Origin: Ischnura elegans
Lineage: Eukaryota > Arthropoda > Insecta > Odonata > Coenagrionidae
Assembly: GCF_921293095.1 (NCBI RefSeq)
Contig: NC_060252.1
Coordinates: forward strand, 81,922,866-81,986,865
Direction: 5' to 3'
Length of the DNA: 64,000 bases
Numbering within the stretch: the stretch's first letter is position 1; each line of letters starts with the position of its first letter. Shown here piece by piece: positions 981 through 60,339 of this stretch. Under the pieces are notes generated by a model that was given only the letters and a program-made list of their open reading frames with translations, made no database searches and was not told the origin of the DNA. Position numbers and translations under genes: made by a program.

Positions 981-1092
981 TAAATAAGGGATAATCAAAG
1001 CACTGAAGGAACAAGTGACTTTGTACGCAGTCACGCGCACGGGTGCAAAGTTAAATACACCAAAGGATGAAGTTCGCCATGAAAAAATATTT

Positions 1093-1163
1093 GACTTAGC
1101 CGGGATTCGAACCCGGATCTCCCGATTGCCGGTCAGGCGTGCTACCAGTTACACCACCAAGCC
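1093..1163 (-). tRNA. tRNA-like gene, copy 1 (apparent anticodon GGC)
   Basis: On the minus strand 71 nt fold as a full cloverleaf. The acceptor is 7 bp with two G-U pairs, the D stem GTGT/GCAC, the anticodon stem CCTGA/TCGGG with loop CCGGCAA, and the T arm CCGGG-TTCGAAT-CCCGG. The B box is consensus. A T6 run begins a few bases after the 3' end and would stop RNA polymerase III. The loop gives anticodon GGC (alanine), but position 33 is C instead of the near-universal U and there is no G3-U70 pair. A translating tRNA is therefore doubtful, and a pol III-competent SINE-like head is as likely. Confidence 0.5.
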
Positions 1164-1412
1164 ATCTTCTCAGAGCGAACTTCGGGATGGGTTTTACCGA
1201 ACAAGATGTTGACGTCACAAGTCCACACTGTGGCACATGTGGCGAGGGTCGTGCTTACTAAGCCACTGTCGGGGAGAAAAACCCTTATTTTCCGCTGGTC
1301 TGCGGCGACGATTTTCAAAGCACTGAAGGAACAAGTGACTTTGTACGTAGTCACGCGCACGGGTGCAAAGTTAAATACACCAAAGGATGAAGTTCACCAT
1401 GAAAAAATATTT

Positions 1413-1483
1413 GACTTAGCCGGGATTCGAACCCGGATCTCCCGATTGCCGGTCAGGCGTGCTACCAGTTACACCACCAAGCC
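1413..1483 (-). tRNA. tRNA-like gene, copy 2
   Basis: This copy is identical in the tRNA-like part to copy 1, with the same C33 anticodon loop and the same T6 terminator downstream on the minus strand. Confidence 0.5.
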
Positions 1484-1732
1484 ATCTTCTCAAAGCGAAC
1501 TTCGGGATGGGTTTTACCGAACAAGATGTTGACGTCACAAGTCCACACTGTGGCACATGTGGCGAGGGTCGTGCTTACTAAGCCACTGTCGGGGAGAAAA
1601 ACCCTTATTTTCCGCTGGTCTGCGGCGACGATTTTCAAAGCACTGAAGGAACAAGTGACTTTGTACGTAGTCACGCGCACGGGTGCAAAGTTAAATACAC
1701 CAAAGGATGAAGTTCACCATGAAAAAATATTT

Positions 1733-1803
1733 GACTTAGCCGGGATTCGAACCCGGATCTCCCGATTGCCGGTCAGGCGTGCTACCAGTTACACCACCAA
1801 GCC
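1733..1803 (-). tRNA. tRNA-like gene, copy 3
   Basis: This copy is identical in the tRNA-like part to copies 1 and 2, including the loop CCGGCAA and the downstream T6 run. Confidence 0.5.
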
Positions 1804-2052
1804 ATCTTCTCAGAGCGAACTTCGGGATGGGTTTTACCGAACAAGATGTTGACGTCACAAGTCCACACTGTGGCACATGTGGCGAGGGTCGTGCTTACTA
1901 AGCCACTGTCGGGGAGAAAAACCCTTATTTTCCGCTGGTCTGCGGCGACGATTTTCAAAGCACTGAAGGAACAAGTGACTTTGTACGCAGTCACGCGCAC
2001 GGGTGCAAAGTTAAATACACCAAAGGATGAAGTTCGCCATGAAAAAATATTT

Positions 2053-2123
2053 GACTTAGCTGGGATTTGAACCCGGATCTCCCGATTGCCGGTCAGGCGT
2101 GCTACCAGTTACACCACCAAGCC
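2053..2123 (-). pseudogene. tRNA-like gene, copy 4 (T-arm variants)
   Basis: This copy has the same cloverleaf as its neighbours but two changes near the T arm (plus-strand TGGGATTTGAAC where the others have CGGGATTCGAAC). One of them alters the normally invariant T-loop and B-box C, so this is probably the least active unit. Confidence 0.5.
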
Positions 2124-2372
2124 ATCTTCTCAGAGCAAACTTCGGGATGGGTTTTACCGAACAAGATGTTGACGTCACAAGTCCACACTGTGGCACATGT
2201 GGCGAGGGTCGTGCTTACTAAGCCACTGTCGGGGAGAAAAACCCTTATTTTCCGCTGGTCTGCGGCGACGATTTTCAAAGCACTGAAGGAACAAGTGACT
2301 TTGTACGCAGTCACGCGCACGGGTGCAAAGTTAAATACACCAAAGGATGAAGTTCGCCATGAAAAAATATTT

Positions 2373-2443
2373 GACTTAGCCGGGATTCGAACCCGGATCT
2401 CCCGATTGCCGGTCAGGCGTGCTACCAGTTACACCACCAAGCC
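2373..2443 (-). tRNA. tRNA-like gene, copy 5
   Basis: This copy is identical in the tRNA-like part to copies 1-3. It is the last complete unit before the array is truncated and continues as an inverted partial copy. Confidence 0.5.
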
Positions 2444-2484
2444 ATCTTCTCAGAGCGAACTTCGGGATGGGTTTTACCGAACCG

Positions 2485-2530
2485 GCCTGACCGGCAATCG
2501 GGAGATCCGGGTTCGAATCCCGGCTAAGTC
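2485..2530 (+). pseudogene. Inverted partial tRNA-like copy
   Basis: The 3' two thirds of the tRNA-like sequence appears here in plus orientation, starting in the anticodon stem. It is followed by the T6 run and by unit sequence up to about 2565. It lacks the A box and 5' acceptor strand. Confidence 0.8.
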
Positions 2531-2578
2531 AAATATTTTTTCATGGCGAACTTCATCCTTTGGTGTAAATAAGGGATA

Positions 2579-3016
2579 CATTAAGCCATTATTTTGCTTA
2601 TTCTTATCTCTTATAATTTGTGGATTTTACTCTCAGGAGTGTAAAATCCACAAATTCATGGTAAAGGCCAATCTATCTCACTCCATGGGGATTCATCTCA
2701 AAGGATTCCAAACTACCCCTAAGATTTAAAAACGAAATCCTTCACTCACTACTTAAACAGAGTCTGTGACACAACTGCACTCTGGAGAAATGATAAGGAT
2801 AAATAATTCTGGCCAAATGTATCATGCAAGAGCTCACAGCAAACAACTGAAGTGAGTCCTTAGGTAGCCATTTCAAGCTGACATACTGACATACTGAGTG
2901 CATCGGGCAAATGTTCCATGAAATACATATTGGCAGCCCATAGACAAGTAACGAGTCTGTATCTCACTGCCTTTTCCATGCTGCATGGGGTGAACTCAAT
3001 GAATACAACATAATTA
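2579..3016 (+). other. Lectin-unit spacer, 5' part
   Basis: No gene is seen here. This is the spacer that recurs upstream of CTL-C, -D and -E. It lacks the roughly 0.9-kb hAT-like insertion those spacers carry, and the uninterrupted pre-insertion site lies at about 2706-2726. It also contains a perfect 16-bp inverted repeat (2615-2630 and 2641-2656) with a 10-nt loop that the sister spacers lack. Confidence 0.7.
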
Positions 3017-3021
3017 CTGAG

Positions 3022-4630
3022 TGTGGTGGAGCTCTTAGTATCGAGCGCCGTCACCAAGGCCAGCCACCCAGCTGATGTTGTTGCCTTGGGACCCTGAGGT
3101 CCCTGCCACTACCACTAGAGTACGCGGAACCTAGCGCCAGGAAGGTGCCGCGAGAGAGAGATGCTCACGGAAAGGCAATGGAGGACTTCTGTGCGTGAGA
3201 GACATAGAGCATCTGTATCACTTACCATTGTCATAAGAGTGGTCGAATTTACTTTTGTGCAATTTATTGAAGTGATGTTAATTATGTACTGACTTTTCCC
3301 AATCCCCTACAAGAGGTGACCCCCGACACGTGTTATTTTCACCAAAAAACGATTTTTTCGAACCATGTGCACAACCACGCTGAGTTACTGTTAGCCATGC
3401 CGCCGACATCGTGTTAATCCTTCGCCATCGCATCTCGAAGTTAATTTTTTATTGTGATCCCGTGTTATATATGTGTGCGTAAATAGTTTTCCTTAGTTTC
3501 TGTGAATTATATTATGTTTCTGAAGATGTCTGATCCACCAGCATCGCACCCCGGGGCGGACTCCATCACTGTTCTAGCACCACTATTTTGGCCAGAGGAG
3601 CCTTCTCTCTGGTTTTCTCAGCCAGAAGGACAATTTTATCTTGCTGGTGTCAAGGAGGACGACACAAAATTTTGGTTTGTGGTTTCGCAGATAGATCACC
3701 GCTATGCACAGGAGGTAAAAGGCATTATATTGTGCCCTCCTGCCTCAGATAAGTACAACACATTCAAGGGTGAATTAATTAAAAGACTCTTTGAATCACA
3801 GGAGCATAAACAAAAACTCCTTTTGGAACATAAAGAGATGGGGGATAGGAAACCATGCCAGTTTTTACGACATTTATGAGATTTGGCGGGTAATTCTGTC
3901 ACGGATGAGTTTTTTTAAGATCGCTGTGGCTTTCAAGACTCCCAAGACATTTGCACGCTATATTAGTGGCACACGATGTAAGAATCCCTCCACCAACTCC
4001 CACACCGGCAGCTCCAGGGGCAGAACATACGCAGCCCAGCGGCCGCCCCAAGTGATGCGTCCATATCCCTCGGCAGTTGTTGCACTACCAACTTCTAACC
4101 TTTTCCAATTTTTTTCCTCAAAACATTTGCCAATTTTATGCCGTCTTCCTTCCTTTCCCTCTTTTTTTTCCATTTCTTCTCCATGCTAGAGTAACTCACT
4201 GCCAGGGGTGTGATGTGGCGGAGCTCTTAGTTTTGAGTGCCGTCACCAAGGCCAGCCACCTGGCTGAGGTTGTTGCCCTGGCACCCTGAGGTCCCTGCTG
4301 CTACCACTAGGGTACACGGAACGAAGTGCCAGGAAGGCACTGCGAGAGAGAGACGCTCATGGAAAGGCAACGGAGAAGGACATCCACGCCTGACAGATCA
4401 GTGAATAGATATCGTCATTTAAAAATCTAAAAGCGTGAAATACATACTCCAGGAGTAATAATCTTTCGATTTAGGCAATAAAAAAATAATAGGAAACCAC
4501 CTTATTCTGTAAGTATAAAATCATTTACCAAATAGAACATGTGTATCGCAAACCAATGTATTAAAACGTGGTCGAATTTACTTTCATGTAATTCATTGAA
4601 GTGAGATTAATTACTGACTTATCCCCTTCA
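3022..4630 (+). mobile_element. Old Gypsy-like (Mag-type) LTR element, broken
   Basis: This is a fossil LTR retrotransposon flanked by the 5-bp duplication CTGAG (3017-3021 and 4631-4635), inserted in a lectin spacer that is uninterrupted in the sister units. A 5' LTR spans about 3022-3311 and a 3' LTR about 4214-4630, both starting TGTGG. Between them is a short gag remnant (about 3502-3879) with the phrases LWFSQ, KFWFVVSQ and DRKPCQFLRHL typical of Mag-lineage gag. No pol is present, so the copy is internally deleted and non-functional. LTR divergence suggests it is old. The 3' LTR contains a foreign patch listed separately. Confidence 0.8.
4404..4527 (+). repeat. Patch copied from a lectin intron, inside the 3' LTR
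   Basis: About 124 bp match 7288-7418 nearly base for base. The match covers the end of the AGGG-ended element there and continues across its boundary into lectin intron sequence (CTGTAAGTATAAAATC). It therefore looks like a copied patch, for example break-repair filler, rather than a transposition. The 5' LTR lacks it. Confidence 0.75.
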
Positions 4631-10440: not shown

Positions 10441-11005
10441 ATTTTCCCCCAGCACTAAAAAAAACAAGTATAGGAAGATGGGTTAATAATCTACCTGATG
10501 TTCTTAACAAAAAGCAACAAAAGCTGGTTCAAAATGATTAATACAATACCTAATGGACGTTTTCTTATTCAGCAGTTTATTTGAAAAAAAACTGTAACTT
10601 TCTATTCTCATTAAATGTGACATTTCTCCAACAAATCCAATTAAATTGCTCTCCTGTTTTCTCAAAAGTTTCTTTATGAAAATCATGTTGTAAAACAGGA
10701 TTAAAGTGTACATTCATGTAAACATTAAAGACAAATGCTCTCCAACCAAATATAAGTTATGGTATTATGAAAGTCTTGGGAATAAAAACTGGCTGCTGTG
10801 AAATCATGATGAATTAAGGAATCAAATTTGTGTTGATACTGGGTTTTTAATTTTGACATGGATGTAAGCAAAGTCAACAAATTAGATAAGTAAGGGATAC
10901 ATTATGCCATTATTTTGCTTCCTCCTATTAAGTCACAGGAATGTAATTCCACAAATTCTGGGTGAAGGCAAATCCAACTCTATCCATTGGGATTCATCTG
11001 AAGGG
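10441..11005 (+). other. 3' flank of CTL-B
   Basis: No gene is seen. The stretch aligns with the DNA after the CTL-A, CTL-C and CTL-D stop codons. Confidence 0.5.
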
Positions 11006-16672: not shown

Positions 16673-17246
16673 ATTTTCACCCAGCGCTAAAAAAATCAGG
16701 TACGGGAAGACGGGTTACTTAACCTACCTGATATTCTTAAAAAAAAAAAAACAACAAAAGTTGGTTAAAAATGATCAATACAAACCATAATGGACATTTT
16801 GTTAGTCAAAAGTGTGTTTGCAAAAACCTGTAACTTTCCATTCTCATAATTTGATATTTGTCCAACATATCCAATTAAATTGCTCTCCTGTTTTCTTAAA
16901 AGTTTCTTTATGAATATAATGTCGTAACACAGGATTAAAGTGTATATTCATGTCAACATTAAAGACAAATGCTCTCCACCCAAATTTAAGTTATGGTATT
17001 ATGAAAGTCTTGGGAACAAAAACTGGCCGCCGTAAACGTTGATAGGTTAAATAAACAAATTTGTGTTGATACTGGGTCTTTAATTTTGACATGGATGTAA
17101 ACTAAGTCAACAGATTAGAAAAGAAAGGGATACATTATGCCATCATTTTGCTTCCTCTTATTAAGTCACAGGAGTGTAATTCCACAAATTCAGGGTGAAG
17201 GCCAATCCAACTCTATCCATTGGGATTCATCTGAAGGGATTCCAAA
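16673..17246 (+). other. 3' flank of CTL-C
   Basis: No gene is seen. It is homologous to the other lectin 3' flanks. Confidence 0.5.
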
Positions 17247-23041: not shown

Positions 23042-23605
23042 ATTTTCCCCCAGCGCTAAAAAAAAAATCAGGTATGGGAAGATGGGTTATTTAATCTACC
23101 TGATATTCTTAAAAAACGCAACAAAAGTGGTTCAAAATGATTAATACAATACATAATGGACATTTTGTTAGTCATTAGTGTGTTTGCAAAAAACTGTAAC
23201 TTTCTATTCTCATTAAATGTGACATTTGTCCAACAAATCCAATTAAATTGCTCTCCTGTTTTCTTAAAAGTTTCTTTATGAATATCATGTAATAACACAG
23301 GAATAAAGTGCACATTCATGTCAACATTAAAGACAAATGCTCTCCACCCAAATTTAAGTTATGGTATTATGAAAGTCTTGGGAACAAAAACTGGCTGCTG
23401 TGAAACCATGATAGGTTAAGTAATCAAATTTGTGTTGATTCTGGGTTTTTAATTTTGACATGCATGTAAGCAAAGTCAACAGATTAGATAAGTAAGGAAT
23501 ACATGATGCCATCATTTTGCTTACTCTTATTAAGTGACGGGAGTGCAAATTCCAAAAATTCAGGGCAAAGGACAAGCCAACTCACTCAAGGATTCATCTC
23601 AAGGG
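23042..23605 (+). other. 3' flank of CTL-D
   Basis: No gene is seen. It is homologous to the other lectin 3' flanks. Confidence 0.5.
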
Positions 23606-31200: not shown

Positions 31201-34200
31201 ACTTAGCACATTCAAAGAGGCCACCTCCAGGCAGACGGATCCCACATAATAAGCCTAGTGATGGCGGTGCCCTTTGAGGCACCTCCAGTACAGATCATTG
31301 CTGGTTGCTTAACAGAAGGCGCCCCTTGGACTGCCCCTAGGCACGTGCCCACTTTCCCTTACGGTGAATCCGGCCCTGGTAGAGCCAAATCTATGGTACT
31401 CCATGCCACCATGGCAACAAAATGCACAGCTCACCATCAAGCATTACAAACCATGTACGCAAGGGATCCACAGAGTGAATTGAAACAAGTTAGGGCATTT
31501 GTATGCTTTCATTATAAAAAGTAAAAAGGACAATATGTGACAATTTTTGGTGTGTACATCTAAAATGGGTAGTGATTTTCATCTTTTTTCTATGCCACTG
31601 GAGTTTTTCTCGACCATAAAATGATTTCTCTCACATTACCATGACTTTCAGTCACAATTTTTATTACCCTGAATGGTATGAATTCTGTACGTATGTAAAC
31701 ATTTCACAAATATTGAAGAATAACATTATCTGTCTGTTTGAAATCCTTGAATATGAGACTATGCTTCTTTTGCTAAAAATCAACTGCATGTTATTTCCTT
31801 ACATCTGTAAAATTTCATGCCACATATTTCATATTTGCCCATTTCAGCACCACCACCGCTCCCATCTGACTATGAGTTATTCCCAGGAGTTGGATATTAC
31901 AAATTCCACACAGCTACTGCCAAAAGTTTTGAAGATGCATCTTCGAAGTGCACTATGGAAGGAGGTCATTTAGCCATTGTCAACTCAGAAGCTGAGCATC
32001 AGGCATTACAAACCATGTACGCAAGGCATCCTGAGAGTGAACTGAAACAAATTTGGGCTTTTGTAGGCTTTCATGATAGAAAGAAAGAAGGAGAATATGT
32101 GACCATTTTTGGTGAGTAAACCTATGATGGGTATTCAACATCAGAGACCAATGATATGCAGAGAGAATAAAAAATGAATTAAAAGTCAGATCGAGACTGA
32201 CCTGTAATAGATACACCCTGGGGAATACAGTAGCAGCAACCATATTAGTGCCACTTTGTGCCCAAGTGCACTAACACTGAGATAGTTTATTTTTCAAAAT
32301 CGGCTTTTAAAATTTCAAAATTTTTATAAATAGGGAAAGTAAAACTTTATCACCATAATGGCCTGATTTGACCAATTTAACACATAAATTGGTGACTCAG
32401 TGTCATATTCATTTACCGTATTTCTCCGAATATAGTCCCCCCTCCTAATTTTGAGGCTTCAGTTTCGAGAAAAGTAAAAAAAAAATGCGTTTGAATATAG
32501 TCCCTCCCTTTACTTTTACCACAGGCATTTTTGGAAAAAAAGGGGGGACTATATTCAGACATATACGGTATGCTCTCAGTTCCCAAGGCAACCTCACAAG
32601 GTTCAGTTTATTCAACTTAACAATGTCTGATATGCACTGAATAGTAGAGGCCTTCACGTTGTAGAAATCCATCTTACTGATTTGTAAATGAAAAACTTTG
32701 CTATTTCTACAATTTGGAACTTTATTTTCCTGACTAGTTTCGATACACTGTATCATATTCATAGGACTAGCACAAGGACAAGTTCACTATTTATCGTAAA
32801 CCCACGTGCACCGATCAGGTCATCCACTCATCCTCAAAACATTCCATTAATCAAAAATTAGCAGCCTTTCACTGCATGCTGCACAGAGCATTAGCCGTAC
32901 CATTAGAGCCAACAGCTTTCATGTCAGAAATAATCACAATTAAAAAAATTGCAGTCGCTAACGGTTACGCTGAAAAATTAATCGACGATTTACTGGCAGG
33001 CAAAAGGAAAAAAATGTTAATCAAGGATTTTTACTCCTCAACCACAAATGACAAAGGATCGTGGCGACGCCTGAAGTATGTAGGACAACCCTCTATTAAA
33101 ATAGGAAAGTTTCTCAAAGAAATGAACATTCATCCGGCTTACTACAATAACAGGAATCTAAAAAGCTTGCTTCCACCCATCAAAGACTCCATAAACCCAG
33201 CCCTCCATAGTGGGGTTTACCAACTAAAATGCAGTGATTGTGGCGCCAAATACGTGGGACAAACGGGGAGGAACCTAGCCATTAGAGGCGAAGAACACAG
33301 ACGAGACTACATCAAGAAAACGGGACTGTCCCAATTTGCCTCCCACCTCCTTGAAGAAGGACATCAGGCGGATTTCACCCCGGAGTTGCTGCACCGTGTG
33401 AAGAAAGGGTCACAAATGGACATCAGGGAGCAACTGGAAATTTTAAGAATAGTTAAAAAGAAAGAGCCCATCACTAATGACCACCTTTTCCCATTCCACT
33501 CCCCCCTCCTGAACATCCCAATTTTGCACCCGAAAAATAATCCCCATGACGCTAACCCACGCCGCCTCCCCTAAGTACGTTCCCTTTCCTCCCCCCACCT
33601 CCTACGCGAAGTGCAACAATGTAGCGCTCTACAGACATCTCCTCTCCACCCCTTTCCCCTCCCCTCCCCTTCCACTCTTTGCCCCCCCCTTTTTTGGTAT
33701 ATAACCCACGGCAACGCTACTTGTACTGCTAGTCCTATGAATATGATACAGTGTATCGAAACTAGTCAGGAAAATAAAGTTCCAAATTGTAGAAATAGCA
33801 AAGTTTTTCATTTACAAATCAATGTCTGATATATCAAAATACAGCCTCAATGTTATAAACCAAATTTCATCAAATAGCACCAACTTGGGTTTTCCGCGAT
33901 CATTTGAAGAATAATTTTCTTGATTGCAAGTTTCAAATTACCATAAACTCCAGCTGTATTAAAACGATCCGTTCAAATCTAGATTTTGGGCTATGCTCAC
34001 GATACCACTTTTAAATTATTATTACTTGAGCAGTACTGCCTTTGCTGCTTTCATGTGGTCACTGCACATGGAGGACATATAGATAAAGCAGTTTTTGAGC
34101 TCCTTCCACTAAATGCAGAGATCATAGATTCTGTAGTCCAGCAAGAAAGTTTGAAAACTGCCACTATGACCATGGGCTTAACCAGCGAGGGGCAGTTGCC

Positions 34201-35124
34201 TCCCTTAGAAGCAAAAATCACAGAAGTCTTTAAGCAACATCAGAACTGAATTGAAACGAAAGTATTCAACAAATTTTAACTCACTTAAATTTTAACTTTT
34301 AACATTTTTTAAATTTAAACCCATGAAAAATGATATGTATTAGTATAAGATATGTAACTAAAATAAAACTATTTTTTCAAGGAAATGAACTCATAAACCA
34401 ATAAAGCGCTGCTATAATTTTCTTAAAATGTTGCTTTCATTCACCTTCTCCATGCTAAAATGTCACGACTTGGCTTGCCCCCCTAGACCATGGCTTGCCC
34501 CCCCCCCCTTCAGTTATGATCCTGGGTACGCCCTTTACTATGACATCCGACCCCGAGTATAAGATGCACTCAGACTGATTTAAGTATATCTGGACTAGCC
34601 ATGGCGAAGTAACAGTATAGCCCTCAAATTTCCACAGAGGAGAATGAAGCCTCAGTAGCTTAACTGGCTAAAACACTCGATCAGAATCCAGGAGATCTAC
34701 ATCTGAATCCCAGTCAAGGCAAATGATTTTTTCTCTGTGTATTTTTCGCACAATTTGGACCCTGACTGTTGAGATGATTTTCATGGAATAAAAACTCATC
34801 TTAAATACCAGAAGACACAGTTATCCTTTTAGATGTTAATAATTAAATGTAACAGTAAAGTATATTTCTATTGATTTACTTAAAGAGTCCATTTTTTAAA
34901 TCACTAATCCAAAGTAATACACGTACATTTTTTCTCTTACCATAGGCCAGCCTCTGCAATCTACTGGATTCACAAGATGGTCATCTCAAGGTCAGCCTGA
35001 TAACTATAACGGTGCTGAAAACTGTGGCAGTATCCATCGTAACGGAGGCCTTAATGACATAGGATGCGGACGGCAGATTCCATTTTTCTGTGAATATGAC
35101 CTTTCTTGGGCAGAACACTTATAG
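25208..35124 (+). CDS. CTL-E: C-type lectin, chimera of a young exon 1 and older exons 2-3
   Basis: The exons are 25208-25469, 31848-32111 and 34946-35124, giving 234 residues in an open frame. Exon 1 is almost identical to that of CTL-D. Exons 2 and 3 are the most divergent of the set: HTATAKSFEDASSKC, HQALQTMYARHPESELKQIWAF, then SQGQPDNYNGAENCGS and CGRQIPFFCEYD. All cysteines, QPD and LND remain, but the acidic residue after QPD is N. Intron 1 (6.4 kb) contains two successive copies of the same intron segment (25590-25657 continued at 28191, and again from about 28317), marking a recombination joint. It also holds a partial duplicate of exon 2. Intron 2 holds a Penelope-like fragment. Splicing across the joint is inferred from preserved GT-AG sites. 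Confidence 0.85.
25658..28190 (+). mobile_element. 2.5-kb TIR element with AGGGAAGT ends and AT duplication
   Basis: The ends are AGGGAAGTGCACTA and TAGTGTACTTCCCT, flanked by AT (25656-25657 and 28191-28192). Sister introns have the empty site (for example near 5528 in CTL-B). The interior has only short broken frames. Near 26065-26125 a phrase like NKWFKAAPDSYLSMIFCFEDH recalls a THAP-type zinc-finger region, but this is weak. The superfamily is unresolved. Confidence 0.75.
28228..28312 (+). mobile_element. Truncated hAT-type MITE at a recombination joint
   Basis: The left part of the CAGAGGCGGATCC family (here CATAGGCGGATCCAGG) sits after GTTCCTTG, the same target as the complete copy at 5563. 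It stops at about 28312, where the sequence switches to a second, diverged copy of early intron 1. Confidence 0.75.
28317..29040 (+). other. Second, older copy of early intron 1
   Basis: About 28317-28520 aligns with the DNA 30-250 bp downstream of the exon 1 donor in the other genes (CATAGCCAAT, TTCATTTTTTCAG-like, TAGACAATTA, TTGGTTAAATG). It is more diverged than the copy at 25545-25657. The rest holds no recognisable gene. Confidence 0.7.
29081..29339. repeat. Foldback element with 63-bp inverted repeats
   Basis: The arm 29081-29143 (TATCGATACATCCAC to GCTCATCTAG) is the near-perfect reverse complement of 29277-29339. The 133-bp centre has no coding capacity. Confidence 0.8.
29454..30309. 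repeat. Element with about 95-bp inverted terminal repeats
   Basis: The arms at about 29454-29548 and 30211-30309 are inverted copies at roughly 80 percent identity. They contain ACCGGTTTCGTCACTG and CAGCGACGAAACTGGTT. The style resembles the terminal repeats of the Penelope-like copy at 32634, so it may be a non-autonomous relative, but no coding sequence supports this. Confidence 0.6.
30344..31378. mobile_element. hAT-type non-autonomous element (CAGGGCCGGATT ends)
   Basis: The ends CAGGGCCGGATTTAACC and GGTGAATCCGGCCCTG are flanked by the exact 8-bp duplication GTAGAGCC (30336-30343 and 31379-31386). A SINE is nested inside. No transposase frame is seen. Confidence 0.88.
30553..30740 (+). 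mobile_element. tRNA-derived SINE
   Basis: A tRNA-like head has the A box TGGCGGCGGGG and the perfect B box GGTTCGAGTCC. It is followed by a roughly 100-bp body and an AAAT-repeat tail ending near 30740. It is nested in the hAT element at 30344. Confidence 0.85.
31427..31551 (+). pseudogene. Partial duplicate of CTL exon 2, decayed
   Basis: About 125 bp match the 3' half of exon 2 of CTL-E (LQTMYAR, SELKQ, then YVTIFG) at roughly 85 percent. The copy has a stop after HYKK and a changed donor (GTGTGT for GTGAGT). It lies in intron 1 of CTL-E with no upstream half and is followed by ordinary intron sequence, so it should be skipped by splicing. Confidence 0.85.
32416..32568. mobile_element. 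pogo-type MITE (153 bp)
   Basis: The ends CCGTATTTCTCCGAATATAG and CTATATTCAGACATATACGG are flanked by TA (32414-32415 and 32569-32570). The ends match the 1.8-kb element at 50630. Confidence 0.88.
32634..33820 (+). mobile_element. Penelope-like retroelement fragment with GIY-YIG domain
   Basis: The frame 32876-33574 (232 residues) encodes the C-terminal part of a Penelope-like protein. It has a GIY-YIG nuclease core (GVYQLKCSDCGAKYVGQTGR and following R and H residues) with the CxxC usual in these elements. The reverse-transcriptase portion is absent. Perfect 92-bp inverted repeats lie at 32679-32770 and 33729-33820, and a 12-bp duplication AATGTCTGATAT flanks the whole (32622-32633 and 33821-33832). 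The left side has a 45-nt extension beyond the inverted repeat. The copy is 5'-truncated but looks recent. Confidence 0.9.
34171..34536 (-). mobile_element. hAT-type MITE of the lectin-spacer family
   Basis: The ends are CATGGGCTTAACCAGCGAGG and GGGTACGCCCTTT, flanked by the exact 8-bp duplication ACTATGAC (34163-34170 and 34537-34544). It is a shorter relative of 11014-11963 in reverse orientation. Confidence 0.85.
34649..34720 (+). pseudogene. tRNA-derived sequence
   Basis: The 72-nt stretch has a good A box (TAGCTTAACTGG) and a decayed B box (ATCTGAATCC), with acceptor ends GCCT and AGGC that still pair. It is probably a tRNA pseudogene or SINE head. Confidence 0.6.
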
Positions 35125-57400: not shown

Positions 57401-59605
57401 ATATTGCACAAAAACTTAATAGGCAACTTCAATGAGTTTTCCAGGGGATTTTGATGAACAATCCTCCTGAAAACCTGAACAAATTGACTCACGATTTCCA
57501 TCATTGTATCCTAGGCCTCTATTTAATTACTAAAGAAAAATGAGAATTGAACTTACATGAAGCTCCACAACGCAGTGGACTTTCCCATTCGGGACATCCA
57601 CACTGATCCACTTCTCCTCCATTTCCAGGAACACTTCGGCCCAAACATCAACACCATCTCTCTTTCTTGATTTGACAGCTCCACTTTTTCCTTCGTTCTC
57701 TGACGACGAGGAGAGTACCTTCCTGTCCTTCTCCTTCACTGTTATCCCCTTCGTCTTCTTCACGGTCAAAACCTCAGGCTCAAAATCGCTATCGCCCTCG
57801 GAGGGATTCTTTCTTCCTTTTCCTGATTTAGCCGCCGTATCGGATCCCTTAACGGACTTCCCTTTGGATGGTCTATTTTTTTGCCCCCTCTTCGTTTTGG
57901 ACTCAACCTCTTCTTCAGACTCGGATGAGTCCGAATATCGGTTGACTTTCTTATTTTTGCAGCTTCGAGATTTAGTGGATGCCCCAGCCTTCTCTCCCGG
58001 TCTCGATGACGACGATTTCCCCTTCTCTGAGTTCTTGTCCGATGGTGCAGCCTTCGGGAGAGGTTTATCGCTCGTGATACGCTTCTTCTCGTCTGATTTT
58101 CGCCCGGGAACGTTACCTTTTCCTTCAGATTTGGGTGTCTTCTTAGAAACGGTCTTTGAGGTAGATGGGCCTTCTTCCGCAACGGTGGTCCCAGTGCCGC
58201 TAGAGGACTTCGCAGAGGGCCCGGTTTTTCCGTCAGTGGACTTCCTTGGAGCTATGCTACACAGTTCGTGGCTAGGGGGTTTGAGGGGCGCAGGTTGGAG
58301 GGAAAGAACAAGCCTAGCTTTAATGCCTAACGACCTCATCGCACACACGAACATGAGGACTTGATCTTTCACAGAACGAGCCTTCCTCTCGTGGAACTGG
58401 ACCTCGAGAGATGTCTCCAATGGGATATTTGGCGGCGACTCCTTGGGGACAACAACGGGCACAGCCTTTCGAAACCAATTAACCACCTTCTCCAAGTAAT
58501 CTAAGTCTGTCCTGCTTGGTGGATAACAATGGTTCGAAGGAAGGAGGGAAAGTGCTACACCCATTAAGTTCTGGGAGTTCAAGATAGAATTGAGCCACCG
58601 GCCGTGGGCGATCCAGCACAAAAGGTGAACCTTGTGAATGAGTACCTGAATACCGCGCTTCGTGCGGTTCAATCGCCGCTTGAGGCACGCCTCCAAGTCT
58701 ATACCTTTCTTCTTCCTGCGATAAAACAATTCCGGCGCGTCGAGAGTGATTTGGACTCCTTCTTTGGGAATAACGTGAGGTTTTTCATCTTTCTTGACAT
58801 CCGCGTCTCCGGTGACTTCTTCCCAGTCTCCTTCCTCGTCACTTTCGCTCTCTGTTGACGCCTCCATTTCATCCATGTCAACTACCGATGGCCCCTTACA
58901 ACTTTCAGCAAACCTCTCACCCAAGGCTAGCAGTTGGGTCACATCCATTTTCGTGACGTCCACCGTGGGCTTTTCGGTGCTCTCGGATTTTTCCGTAGCC
59001 TTAGCCCGTGAAGAACTTCTACCGCCGGATTTCTTCTTAGTAACATCCTTGGCGGTTCTCGGCCTCTTCCCTTCTTTCGTCGTAAGTTTCTGTCCACGTC
59101 TTCTTTTACCATCATTATCCACTTCAGCTTTCACAGGGGTCTCCAATTTAACTTTCGATTCCGCAGGCTCAACGTTAATCTCCGAATCTCGTTCTTTCGA
59201 TTGCAATGCGGCAGGTAGAACGTCTTCGAAGTCTGAGTCCTCAGACTCGCTCAGGCGACCAACATCGGCTAATATGTTGTCCTCAATGGCAGCAAAGTCA
59301 TACTCTTCCTTGATTTTTAATTCTTCCATTTCAATGCGTGACAGATCAGGCTTTTCAAACTCATTGGATGAACTATCTGAGGATTCATAACCATCCATCA
59401 CACCCAGTGGAGGTTTGTCTGCTTCCTCATCACCCATATTCTCTCTTGATTGAGATTCTTCGGAAACCAAAGACGCTTTAGTTATGTTTTTTGCAGACAG
59501 CCTTTTCCTTTTACTAACAATTTCAGATGCTGAGGTCTCTGCACAACTACTAACCTCGCGTTTAGTGGACAATCCATTTTCTATGACACGTTTACTCCTC
59601 CTCAT
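42407..59605 (-). CDS. XPC/Rad4 nucleotide-excision-repair damage sensor, complete
   Basis: Six exons in transcript order: 59605-57557, 56098-55857, 49400-49175, 48028-47860, 46815-46661 and 42589-42407 (3024 nt, 1007 residues). All junctions are GT-AG and the phases agree (0, 2, 0, 1, 0). Start: the in-frame codon at 59626 is TTG, and the first ATG is 59603-59605 in context AAAAATGA. XPC recognises helix-distorting lesions in the nucleus and recruits TFIIH. Residues 1-260 are acidic and disordered. The Rad4 transglutaminase-like fold spans about 290-440 and 650-683, split by a roughly 200-residue Lys/Ser-rich insert. BHD1 ([18 protein letters not shown], about 767 on), BHD2 and BHD3 ([36 protein letters not shown]) follow. 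The C-terminus is basic ([14 protein letters not shown]), as in human XPC. The introns are loaded with mobile DNA. Confidence 0.95.
42590..42963 (-). other. XPC intron 5, 3' part
   Basis: No feature is seen beyond the polypyrimidine tract and acceptor next to exon 6. Confidence 0.5.
42964..44979 (+). mobile_element. Helitron, degenerate, in XPC intron 5
   Basis: It begins TCTATATATATAAA after an A and ends GTCAGCTAG before a T, as Helitrons do. The 3' end has GGCGGTACGAAGTTCGCC, a short hairpin-forming stretch. Near 43460-43760 the plus strand has broken remnants of the Pif1-type helicase C-terminus (NEDVDD, later [11 protein letters not shown]). It is homologous to 53395-55578, and the site corresponding to 43395 is the empty target of the element nested there. 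Confidence 0.85.
43993..44281. mobile_element. hAT-type MITE nested in the Helitron
   Basis: The ends CAAGTGCGTAGCTAGG and CGCTGCGTCACTG are flanked by CTTCGCTT and CTTTGCTT (8 bp, one change). It is absent from the second Helitron copy. Confidence 0.75.
45341..45640 (+). pseudogene. Possible LINE reverse-transcriptase fragment
   Basis: A 99-codon frame includes [19 protein letters not shown], resembling the palm start of non-LTR reverse transcriptases (KNNKAPGSDGI). The match is short. It may belong to the same degraded insertion as 46010-46658. Confidence 0.4.
45641..46009. other. XPC intron 5, unassigned
   Basis: Short frames only. I recognise no element ends. Confidence 0.4.
46010..46658 (+). 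mobile_element. LINE fragment abutting the XPC exon 5 donor
   Basis: Broken frames encode the C-terminus of a non-LTR reverse transcriptase: [10 protein letters not shown], then [28 protein letters not shown] and [15 protein letters not shown] 3' untranslated region and an AATAAAATAATAATAATA tail follow. The tail runs up to the GT of the XPC donor at 46659-46660, read on the minus strand as CAG then GTATTATTATTATT. Confidence 0.8.
46890..47053 (-). mobile_element. hAT-type MITE in XPC intron 4
   Basis: The 164-bp element has ends CAATGGAGGTTCC and GATCCGCCACTG and the exact 8-bp duplication ATATCAGG (46882-46889 and 47054-47061). Confidence 0.88.
47062..47859 (-). other. XPC intron 4, 5' part
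   Basis: No gene or element is recognised. The frame at 47569-47997 is a shadow extending through exon 4. Confidence 0.5.
48508..49141. mobile_element. piggyBac-like non-autonomous element in XPC intron 3
   Basis: The ends CACTAGAACCGC and GCGGTTCTAGTG are flanked by TTAA (48504-48507 and 49142-49145). The palindrome GGGACAAAAAAGTCCC, or a close variant, occurs at both ends and internally near 48930. It ends only about 30 bp before the end of exon 3. Confidence 0.85.
49401..50627 (-). other. XPC intron 2, segment next to exon 3
   Basis: No gene is seen and no clear element ends are present. Confidence 0.45.
50630..52468 (+). mobile_element. pogo-like (Tc1/mariner) element with internal deletions
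   Basis: The ends CCGTATATCTCCGAATATAG and CTATATTCGGAGATATACGG are flanked by TA (50628-50629 and 52469-52470). Near 51545-51800 the plus strand has a broken transposase N-terminus: [19 protein letters not shown] (helix-turn-helix), then [31 protein letters not shown], a CENP-B-like DNA-binding segment seen in pogo/Tigger proteins. The catalytic domain is missing. Confidence 0.85.
52471..53394 (-). other. XPC intron 2, middle part
   Basis: No gene is recognised. The short frame at 52515-52709 has no known motif. Confidence 0.4.
53395..55578 (+). mobile_element. Second Helitron copy, 5'-truncated, in XPC intron 2
   Basis: The 3' end AAGTTCGCCAGGTCAGCTAG matches the Helitron at 42964-44979, and homology runs back to about 53395. 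The frame 54297-54590 keeps a helicase C-terminal piece with [25 protein letters not shown], like the Pif1-type RepHel tail. It is interrupted by the AGGG-ended element at 53586. Confidence 0.82.
53586..54247 (+). mobile_element. AGGG-ended TIR element with AT duplication (copy 3)
   Basis: The 662-bp copy is about 90 percent identical to 6730-7390. AT flanks it (53584-53585 and 54248-54249). The Helitron at 42964 has the uninterrupted target CAAGCAATTGTTGAC near 43388-43402, which fixes the ends. Confidence 0.9.
56099..56440 (-). other. XPC intron 1, part next to exon 2
   Basis: Nothing is recognised beyond the exon 2 acceptor (TTTTTCAG on the minus strand). Confidence 0.5.
56444..56678. mobile_element. 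MITE with long TIRs and TAG duplication
   Basis: The terminal inverted repeats exceed 40 bp (AGGCCTGTTTACACGGTACA and its inverted partner) and contain ACATTAACNCGTACG. TAG flanks it at 56441-56443 and 56679-56681. A 3-bp duplication fits a PIF/Harbinger-like MITE. Confidence 0.8.
56685..57556 (-). other. XPC intron 1, part next to exon 1
   Basis: No gene is seen. The part 56980-57480 has repeated short motifs such as AGAGGTT and GAATTTGAA but no clean unit. Confidence 0.4.
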
Positions 59606-60339
59606 TTTTGCAGTAGTGACACTCAATACACTCGTAAATGAATCTAATTAATTCTTACTCCTGTTTTCCTAGGTAAAATATGCTTACCATGAGAGGATCT
59701 CAGCTTAGTTCTCAAACAAAAACACAAACCGGAACCGAACAACTTACATTCGCCCATTATGGCTCACATAGATTGCTGCATCGCACTACTCCGCGGCAAT
59801 GCACGCGAGATAAATTTCTGTCTTAGGTATCACATCTACTTGCATTACCGAGGAATAACAAAGTCACCGAAATAAGCACGCTGTATTATTGACAAACATT
59901 ACCCACGATCTGTTACGTAATTCCGATTTCCCCTTCCCTCCCTCCCTATCGGAATTCATGTTTTTCGATTGTCATTTGTTCAGTCGTAATGGCGCGCCCA
60001 TTGAATTTCAAAAGCTTTGGCACGAGCACATTCCAGCCGTTTATTTCTTTATAAGAAGGAAAAAAGTGGCTAAATTAATGAAATTTTCCAACTGTAAGAG
60101 CCCAATTTAATGAATCAAAAAGATTAGTTACAAAATCAAGCCTTGAAACAAATCTAGCGTTAATACCAGCACTATTCTCACTCCCTGAATCATATTATCC
60201 TATCATAAGATAATAAAATAAGAAGATTTAGCCATAAAGTAAAGGTATCTGATTCAAATATTCGAAGAAAACTGATTCAGCAATCCTAATAAAGTCCTCA
60301 TCATTATCTATCTCTCAAGATGATTGGGGGCATCCATCT
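59606..60339 (-). promoter_or_regulatory. XPC upstream region
   Basis: This is non-coding DNA upstream of the XPC start. No clear TATA box is seen, which suits a housekeeping promoter. The 5' untranslated leader should lie here. Confidence 0.4.

Follow-up and report, generated by a model that had tools for sequence, protein, structure and literature searches.

A dispersed tRNA-like element of Ischnura elegans whose inserts suggest dual-primed copying of a small circular RNA

How does a tandem array of tRNA-like units, complete with an inverted end, come to lie between two copies of one short target sequence? The question is raised by positions 981-2578 of a 64,000-nucleotide stretch of the Ischnura elegans genome (contig NC_060252.1, 81,922,866 to 81,986,865), referred to below as the window. 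A sequence-only reading had taken this array to have arrived as a unit, or else to have grown from a single SINE-like insert.

Make-up and arrival of the insertion

Positions 981-2578 were resolved as a single compound insert, consisting of a direct tract, 2 extra bases and an inverted piece, with a 13-bp duplication on either side. The direct tract (995-2482, plus strand), for which Tandem Repeats Finder gave a 320-bp period, 4.7 copies and 98% matches, starts at phase 1 of the unit (end P1) and stops at phase 208. The five units described earlier are really 4.65 direct units, the last of which ends at that phase, plus 0.26 of an inverted one, although five tRNA-like cloverleaves are indeed present. 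The inverted partial copy thought to close the array was located at 2485-2567 (minus strand, 83 bp, 0.26 unit); its outer end lies at phase 62 (end P57) and its inner end at phase 144, within the tRNA-like. The target duplication TAAATAAGGGATA was found, as claimed, at 981-993 and 2566-2578, the right copy overlapping the end of the inverted tract by a 2-bp microhomology. Just one ORF of at least 160 aa was detected at the array (2067-2729, plus strand), running over the last units and the flank. Elsewhere in the window, a 698-aa ORF (57533-59626, minus strand) matched a transglutaminase core and, weakly and below the cut-off, Rad4; it is perhaps an XPC/Rad4-like exon. Diverged direct repeats (162 bp at 86% and 46 bp at 87%; 3022-4613) flank a stretch that appeared gypsy-gag-like by eye.

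The cloverleaves were detected by ARAGORN on the minus strand at 1091-1164, 1411-1484, 1731-1804, 2051-2124 and 2371-2444, including that of the cut last unit, and scored 52-58 bits with the tRNA model of Rfam. That of unit 1 has the anticodon GGC, and its A and B boxes were recognized by eye. The anticodon loop, CCGGCAA, carries C at position 33. Since tRNAs carry U33, the element is tRNA-like and probably yields no working tRNA; of the cloverleaf, B box and terminator reported earlier, all three were present on the minus strand, but not as parts of a likely functional gene. The terminator corresponds to a U6 run in the RNA (1082-1087, minus strand), a possible Pol III terminator that is predicted to pair with a purine tract upstream of the tRNA-like. 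Folding also gave an extended acceptor stem, a 9-bp helix whose 5' arm is RNA GAAGUUCGC (1175-1183, minus strand) and whose 3' arm is RNA GCGAACUUC (1069-1077, minus strand). The predicted fold is a long hairpin around the tRNA-like, in which the helix GAAGUUCGC/GCGAACUUC is continued by the purine tract paired with U6 and the tRNA-like sits on top. This tRNA-capped hairpin was evaluated at -47.9 kcal/mol (z -3.8), and 0 of 300 shuffles were as good, in an energy model that omits the full cloverleaf, which ARAGORN and Rfam do find. The whole 320-nt unit, when folded, showed no unusual stability (z -1.65; 6 of 100 shuffles did as well). Pol III should terminate at a U6 run, which would leave its transcripts ending after the tRNA-like and short of the full unit; a full-length RNA may instead be owed to read-through or to Pol II. 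On general grounds, one could guess that pairing between leader and trailer might protect the tRNA-like against RNase P and tRNase Z. Matches to non-tRNA Rfam families (microRNA, mascRNA, sRNA, viral pseudoknot and snoRNA) were below gathering scores and were attributed to chance or to secondary matching of the tRNA-like.

The flank of the insertion has been duplicated several times along the window, which provided empty sites. When the flanks were joined across the insert, they aligned through the junction at 10772-10920, 16958-17246 and 23326-23530 (0 matches in 100 shuffles). Each of these three paralogous sites lacks the array and has the 13-mer once, as TAAGTAAGGGATA at 10887-10910 and as this or a close variant at 17120-17143 and 23489-23512 (all on the plus strand). 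This indicates that the array came as one insertion; most simply, it entered in one piece, inverted end included, after the flanking stretch had duplicated. The same joined-flank test, applied against the sequence in hand to the 31 of 40 family loci with an end repeat of at least 10 bp, gave spanning matches for 2 of the 31 (the window copy and L020). By eye, 356-535 and its duplicates near 10.7, 17.0 and 23.3 kb resemble a lectin-like exon.

The dispersed family and its ends

A search of the 1.72-Gb host genome with the 320-bp unit, as the sequence-only reading had proposed, revealed a large dispersed family, the window array not being a lone event: at least 185 matches were obtained in the best 40 of 3,684 candidate places. 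A 38-base segment taken from the tRNA-like had 2,152 genome matches at up to 3 mismatches, compared with 0 for its reversed control. The window array represents a single copy within a young family of small, non-coding mobile elements, whose dispersal, duplications and empty sites are seen directly from the sequence. Phage and plasmid searches returned short matches only, with tRNA genes accounting for many, and viral contigs had no match to an exact 31-base pattern. The 40 loci analyzed were the best-scored, selected on score and not on architecture, and are hence mostly young; 8 extra loci were hand-picked from pattern matches on one chromosome, 3 of them with matches on both strands.

Two opposed tracts were observed in 34 of the 40 loci and a single tract in 6. 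All 34 had the order plus then minus, which is convergent, so that reading inwards from either outer end gives the same sense. One P1 end (phases 314 to 8) was combined with one P57 end (50 to 67) in 32 of the 34, and two ends alike were found in none; the exceptions, L037 and L039, have P1 with one odd end. The extra loci comprised 5 two-tract and 3 single-tract inserts, with 3 of the 5 falling within the strict cut-offs and the other 2 pairing P1 with phase 76 or 88. The end phases of the 40 loci point to two start sites of reverse transcription, P1 (phase ~1) and P57 (~57), which would bound a "tail" interval drawn on unit 1 at 995-1050 (minus strand). End repeats of at least 12 bp were found for 29 of 40 true end pairs versus 0 of 1,560 mismatched pairs, and those of at least 10 bp for 31 of 40 versus 9 of 1,560. 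Enclosing whole compound inserts, they join the empty sites in bearing out the arrival of the array as a unit. In 30 standard loci the repeat was 12 bp (17 loci), 13 bp (8), 14 bp (3), 11 bp (1) or 10 bp (1), those longer than 12 bp being compatible with microhomology. A leaning to AAC was present before the duplication (20, 19 and 13 of 30) and to GTT after it (11, 18 and 22 of 30), with per-position p values of 0.00006 to 0.009, which suggests a two-fold symmetric cut. When the two sides of the same site were tested for pairing (palindromy) against re-paired flanks, no excess was detected (33 matches versus 37 shuffled), so that target symmetry rests on the single-position enrichments.

The longest tracts reach 6.4 units, and tracts of 5-6 units occur in four loci (L016, L018, L021 and L030). 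Inner tract ends were concentrated at phases 116-147 (25 of 72, p 1e-8 against a uniform spread) and within the tRNA-like at phases 92-170 (37 of 72, p 1e-6 against uniform); with tracts of 200 nt or less excluded, the counts were 17 of 54 (p 1e-5) and 24 of 54 (p 0.001), respectively. The excess in the tRNA-like is partly due to short P57 tracts that end on the first pass, and the reverse transcriptase may halt at a folded structure there. Junctions between tracts, examined in 33 loci, had either up to 16 overlapping bases or up to 31 bases of filler, a pattern that resembles the product of end joining. The lengths of the P1 and P57 tracts did not clearly differ (p 0.10) and were weakly correlated (rho 0.37, p 0.04, n 31).

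Target-site duplications of 12-14 bp and 5' inversion are traits of LINEs too, and fit LINE-type target-primed reverse transcription with classical twin priming as the source of these inserts. In LINE twin priming, however, the second site is internal and variable and a minority of inserts is affected, whereas here both start sites are fixed and dual priming is seen in 34 of the 40 loci. The lack of poly(A) that had been remarked at the window copy also holds for the family, as neither poly(A) nor a simple-repeat tail recurs at insert ends. We therefore consider a LINE-type origin improbable. Integration of a DNA element or DNA circle, either MITE-like or produced as rolling-circle DNA, would account for the inverted symmetry and the duplications, but the two ends differ in sequence, their phases vary by several bases (roughly 314-8 and 50-67), and the tracts meet at a variable junction that includes overlap or filler, which makes this origin very improbable.

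A second tRNA-like family was found beside L056, with a 326-bp unit and 3,935 pattern matches. Its tRNA-like has GGA in the place of the anticodon, C33 as in the first family, and a U7 run. A helix of different sequence, AUCCACAG/CUGUGGAU, is predicted at the same place (z -3.3; 1 of 300 shuffles as good), and a nearby upstream RNA motif of the first family, CAACAUCUUGUUCGGUA (1195-1211, minus strand), is kept at 16 of 17 positions as CAACAUCUUGUYCGGUA according to the unit comparison. Its inserts end at about 3-15 and 268-276, with one end of each kind in 7 of 7 two-tract loci (10 loci read) and end repeats of 12-15 bp in 6 of the 7 and of 8 bp in L081. Thus, four features, namely the tRNA-like, a predicted helix extending it, a U run and the end rule, are kept by two related and much diverged families, of which the second is the older. 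The window also holds an old fragment of the second family, 82% identical, at 34626-34755 (minus strand).

Penelope-like elements of the same genome

A 320-bp unit is far too short to encode a reverse transcriptase and a GIY-YIG endonuclease. Penelope-like elements (PLEs) of this genome were represented by at least 149 matches in a GIY-YIG search, taken from the best 150 of 2,199 candidates. In contrast with the tRNA-like element, which codes for nothing evident, the PLE locus L069 carries both RVT_1 and GIY-YIG domains. Two PLE families were compared with the tRNA-like inserts. For PLE-B, 17 stretches were read and 14 inserts had two ends, with one of each kind in 12 of the 14, namely one at 1022-1032 and the other at 1060-1075 in L069 coordinates, and target-site duplications of 12-15 bp; the exceptions are L065, which lacks a duplication, and L073/L074, which has one far end. 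For PLE-A, 6 of 9 inserts were two-ended, and in 6 of 6 the ends were near 1206-1231 and 1260-1269, where 1206 is the start of the query and the end there may be longer; the end repeats were 9-12 bp, with those of L049 and L059 being poor. Taken together, one tailed and one untailed end were observed in 18 of 20 two-ended inserts, with tails of ~37 and ~45 nt as against ~57 nt in the tRNA-like element. The two-end rule thus largely holds for the PLEs of this genome as well, which favors Penelope-like machinery over ordinary LINE twin priming for the tRNA-like element.

The start sites of the unit showed no convincing similarity to PLE-A or PLE-B. A unit-based search for a partner PLE returned tRNA-like copies near L055 and L056, the latter of the second family, together with chance-level pieces. 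A short likeness, TTAAATACAC, between P57 and the odd PLE-B end of L073/L074 was dropped because that end lies outside the PLE-B start sites. Several further PLE features were noted. A third PLE family, at L097 (238-3650), forms a direct partial tandem with 2,525-bp spacing and an 804-aa ORF, two copies of its 888-bp stretch being 99.8% identical, and is also present at L057. The PLE-B insert of L071/L072 is a near-perfect palindrome of 2,126 bp (99.9%). A 232-aa ORF in the window (32876-33571, plus strand) matches GIY-YIG weakly, at 19.3 bits against a cut-off of 22.6, and resembles the end of another PLE.

The hammerhead core CTGANGA was absent from either strand of both tRNA-like units (320 and 326 bp). 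A minimal hammerhead pattern was found in 29 of 30 GIY-YIG loci, some of which are two ends of one insert, nearly always at one place after the endonuclease; L062 is the locus without it. As this minimal pattern also matches 6 times on both strands of the 64-kb window, the match in L057 is probably due to chance. Rfam ribozyme models gave 0 matches on the array (E up to 5) and 0 on the second-family loci (E up to 1), but they also missed the minimal hammerheads of the PLE loci, so that their silence on the array is weak evidence. A genome search for the Rfam hammerhead likewise gave 0 matches with its controls also at 0, and is hence uninformative on absence.

For the enzyme, there is published biochemistry on a PLE protein from the anole, PAc. 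According to the available text of PMC11167929, PAc cuts and extends both strands, prefers AT-rich DNA, is predicted to form a dimer, and begins reverse transcription at two internal RNA sites, which delimit the tail seen in the genome. Less in line with the model proposed below, the in vitro start site was the same for both strands, linear RNA served as the template and hammerhead cleavage was dispensable. In Adineta Pen2, the tail is described as optional and located at one of the inverted pLTRs in the available text of PMC3846280. The exact rule of one tailed and one untailed end is not described for PLEs in the available parts of these two papers.

Template, mechanism and relation to known elements

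Variation among units bears on the template. The variant counts exclude 10 bases at ragged tract ends as well as positions with single coverage. In 38 cases, a variant was fixed in all informative units of its own locus, up to 11 of 11 (T318A in L016); other examples are A193G (10/10 in L018), T297G with T318A (6/6 in L030) and del312 (6/6 in L036). This homogeneity within loci, like the one-of-each ends and the common polarity, can be read off the sequence. Among the 38, 21 rest on at least three units, 26 occur in both tracts and 7 come from single-tract loci. Amplification in place of a single SINE-like insert, the other origin that had been considered for the array, would not be expected to give 26 of 38 fixed variants in the direct and inverted tracts alike, nor one polarity in all 34 two-tract loci, nor outer ends at fixed phases beside the target-site duplication. 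Although local exchange may account for units 2 and 3 of the window copy, we regard such amplification as scarcely credible.

Five variants fixed in at least two loci, T318A (10 loci), A85G (4), A193G (3), T297G (3) and del312 (2), were fixed in 22 of 22 locus instances, from which each insertion seems to have been copied from one monomer. The 74 partial variants were confined to a single unit in 70 cases, and about 20 of them, in L012, L028 and L037, resemble misaligned or deleted tract ends. Those that recurred between loci lie at CpG sites (42, 144, 183 and 205) and near-end sites (2, 105 and 106), together with G71A, G72A, C18T and A68G; C18T is in 5/5 units of L025 and 1/2 of L027, and A68G in 3/3 of L039 and 1/7 of L022. 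Mosaic variants are C144T in L009 (2/8) and A202G in L030 (2/6), and units 2 and 3 of the window copy share C34T (2/5) and G82A (2/6). Such mosaics (the window copy, L009, L030, L027 and L022) need conversion, recurrence or a mixed template, and the window pair in particular requires later exchange or a mixed template. No scar was seen at the unit joint, with no same-phase indel in two loci except del312 and the gaps at 105/106 beside tract ends.

The same dual-primed PLE insertion could instead have used a linear multimeric transcript of an existing array. In PMC11167929, multimeric transcripts are proposed for PLE arrays, and linear RNA was used by PAc in vitro, as noted above. Some mosaic arrays exist, and a homogeneous parent array would likewise yield homogeneous daughters. 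A linear multimer should nevertheless hand down mosaics, whereas 22 of 22 instances are fixed despite common single-unit mutations, and daughter tracts could not exceed the parent, yet 5-6 units are reached in the four loci named above. We judge this template rather unlikely. The homogeneous units favor a circular monomer read repeatedly, and with cDNAs longer than the unit itself, the inserts suggest repeated passes over one monomer.

The element is thus probably a non-coding retroelement of ~320 nt, in which a monomeric circular RNA would be read by a dual-primed Penelope-like enzyme. If target 3' ends are the primers, both tracts are antisense to the tRNA-like, and the template would be an RNA of tRNA sense, ~320 nt long, whose circular form and closure we infer. 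A PLE reverse transcriptase/GIY-YIG endonuclease, probably as a dimer, would bind this RNA at P1 and P57, ~57 nt apart, and would make staggered cuts, about 12 bp apart, in the two strands of an AT-rich target. Each cut 3' end would prime one cDNA, one from P1 and the other from P57, and both enzymes would follow the circle in one direction, often for more than a full turn, with a tendency to stop in the folded tRNA-like. End joining of the two cDNAs would leave convergent tandem tracts between 12-13 bp duplications. Here, we infer a PLE as the enzyme, transcription by Pol III, and a tRNA-capped hairpin in the place of the hammerhead. Twin priming and a rolling-circle product, both of which had been raised for the window copy, are supported together by the empty sites, the end repeats around whole inserts and the fixed convergent geometry, though twin priming of the ordinary LINE kind is not favored.

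Comparison with known systems places the element between several of them. It resembles the metazoan non-LTR retrozymes (Cervera and de la Pena 2020, in its available text) in being tandem and non-autonomous with target-site duplications, and its units of 320 and 326 bp lie within the retrozyme range of about 150-450 bp. Unlike retrozymes, it has a tRNA-capped hairpin instead of a hammerhead core, none being found per unit, and its convergent tracts with two different fixed ends are not described in the available text of PMC7229834 and PMC7761336. In the animal retrozyme model presented there, circular RNA is reverse-transcribed into multimers. The element would accordingly seem to work like a retrozyme while failing the defining feature, the hammerhead, with the circle suggested by the variants. 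It also resembles PLEs, such as PAc of Anolis and Pen2 of Adineta as far as their available descriptions go, in its inverted and tandem inserts, optional tail at one end and target-site duplication; an inverted copy with the tail at one end only is present in 32 of 34 two-tract loci. It differs from them by its lack of any evident coding capacity, which means that it is no PLE itself, and by the absence, in both tRNA-like units, of the minimal hammerhead that PLEs have upstream of the reverse-transcription start. With tRNA-derived SINEs it shares a tRNA-like head that tRNA models match, with A and B boxes seen by eye, a candidate Pol III promoter, but its inserts are tandem or head-to-head, have no A-rich or simple-repeat tail, and have ends set by two start sites. 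The SM-alpha/Sa repeats of Schistosoma are SINE-like, about 330 bp long and said to have a Pol III promoter, and they carry a hammerhead; the present element is similar in unit size and SINE-like character and differs in the hammerhead.

The available text of the 2020 review (PMC7761336) describes animal retrozymes as without a motif that reveals their autonomous partner and names PLEs/Terminons as likely movers, hammerheads being common to both, so that PLEs moving animal retrozymes have already been proposed in print on that basis. The present analysis adds the end structure and a family that lacks the hammerhead in question. A more tentative reading, to which we give somewhat less than even weight, is that the element represents a PLE-mobilized class of circular RNA that would circularize without a known ribozyme, via the tRNA-capped hairpin, each one-tailed insert being the fossil of two reverse transcriptases on one circle. 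Under this tentative reading, the circles might be made by host tRNA-processing or ligase enzymes or by an undescribed ribozyme.

The short inserts record the start and the stop of each cDNA, and they follow the end rule of PLEs with no hammerhead in common. Long PLEs cannot easily show that one monomer is read repeatedly, as the inserts of a 320-bp unit suggest. The rule of exactly one tailed end provides a testable statement on PLE insertion, namely two enzymes at two RNA sites on one RNA, whereas the anole study reports two start sites but no difference between strands. If the inserts are indeed copies of RNA circles, they may throw light on the spread of such elements in animals.
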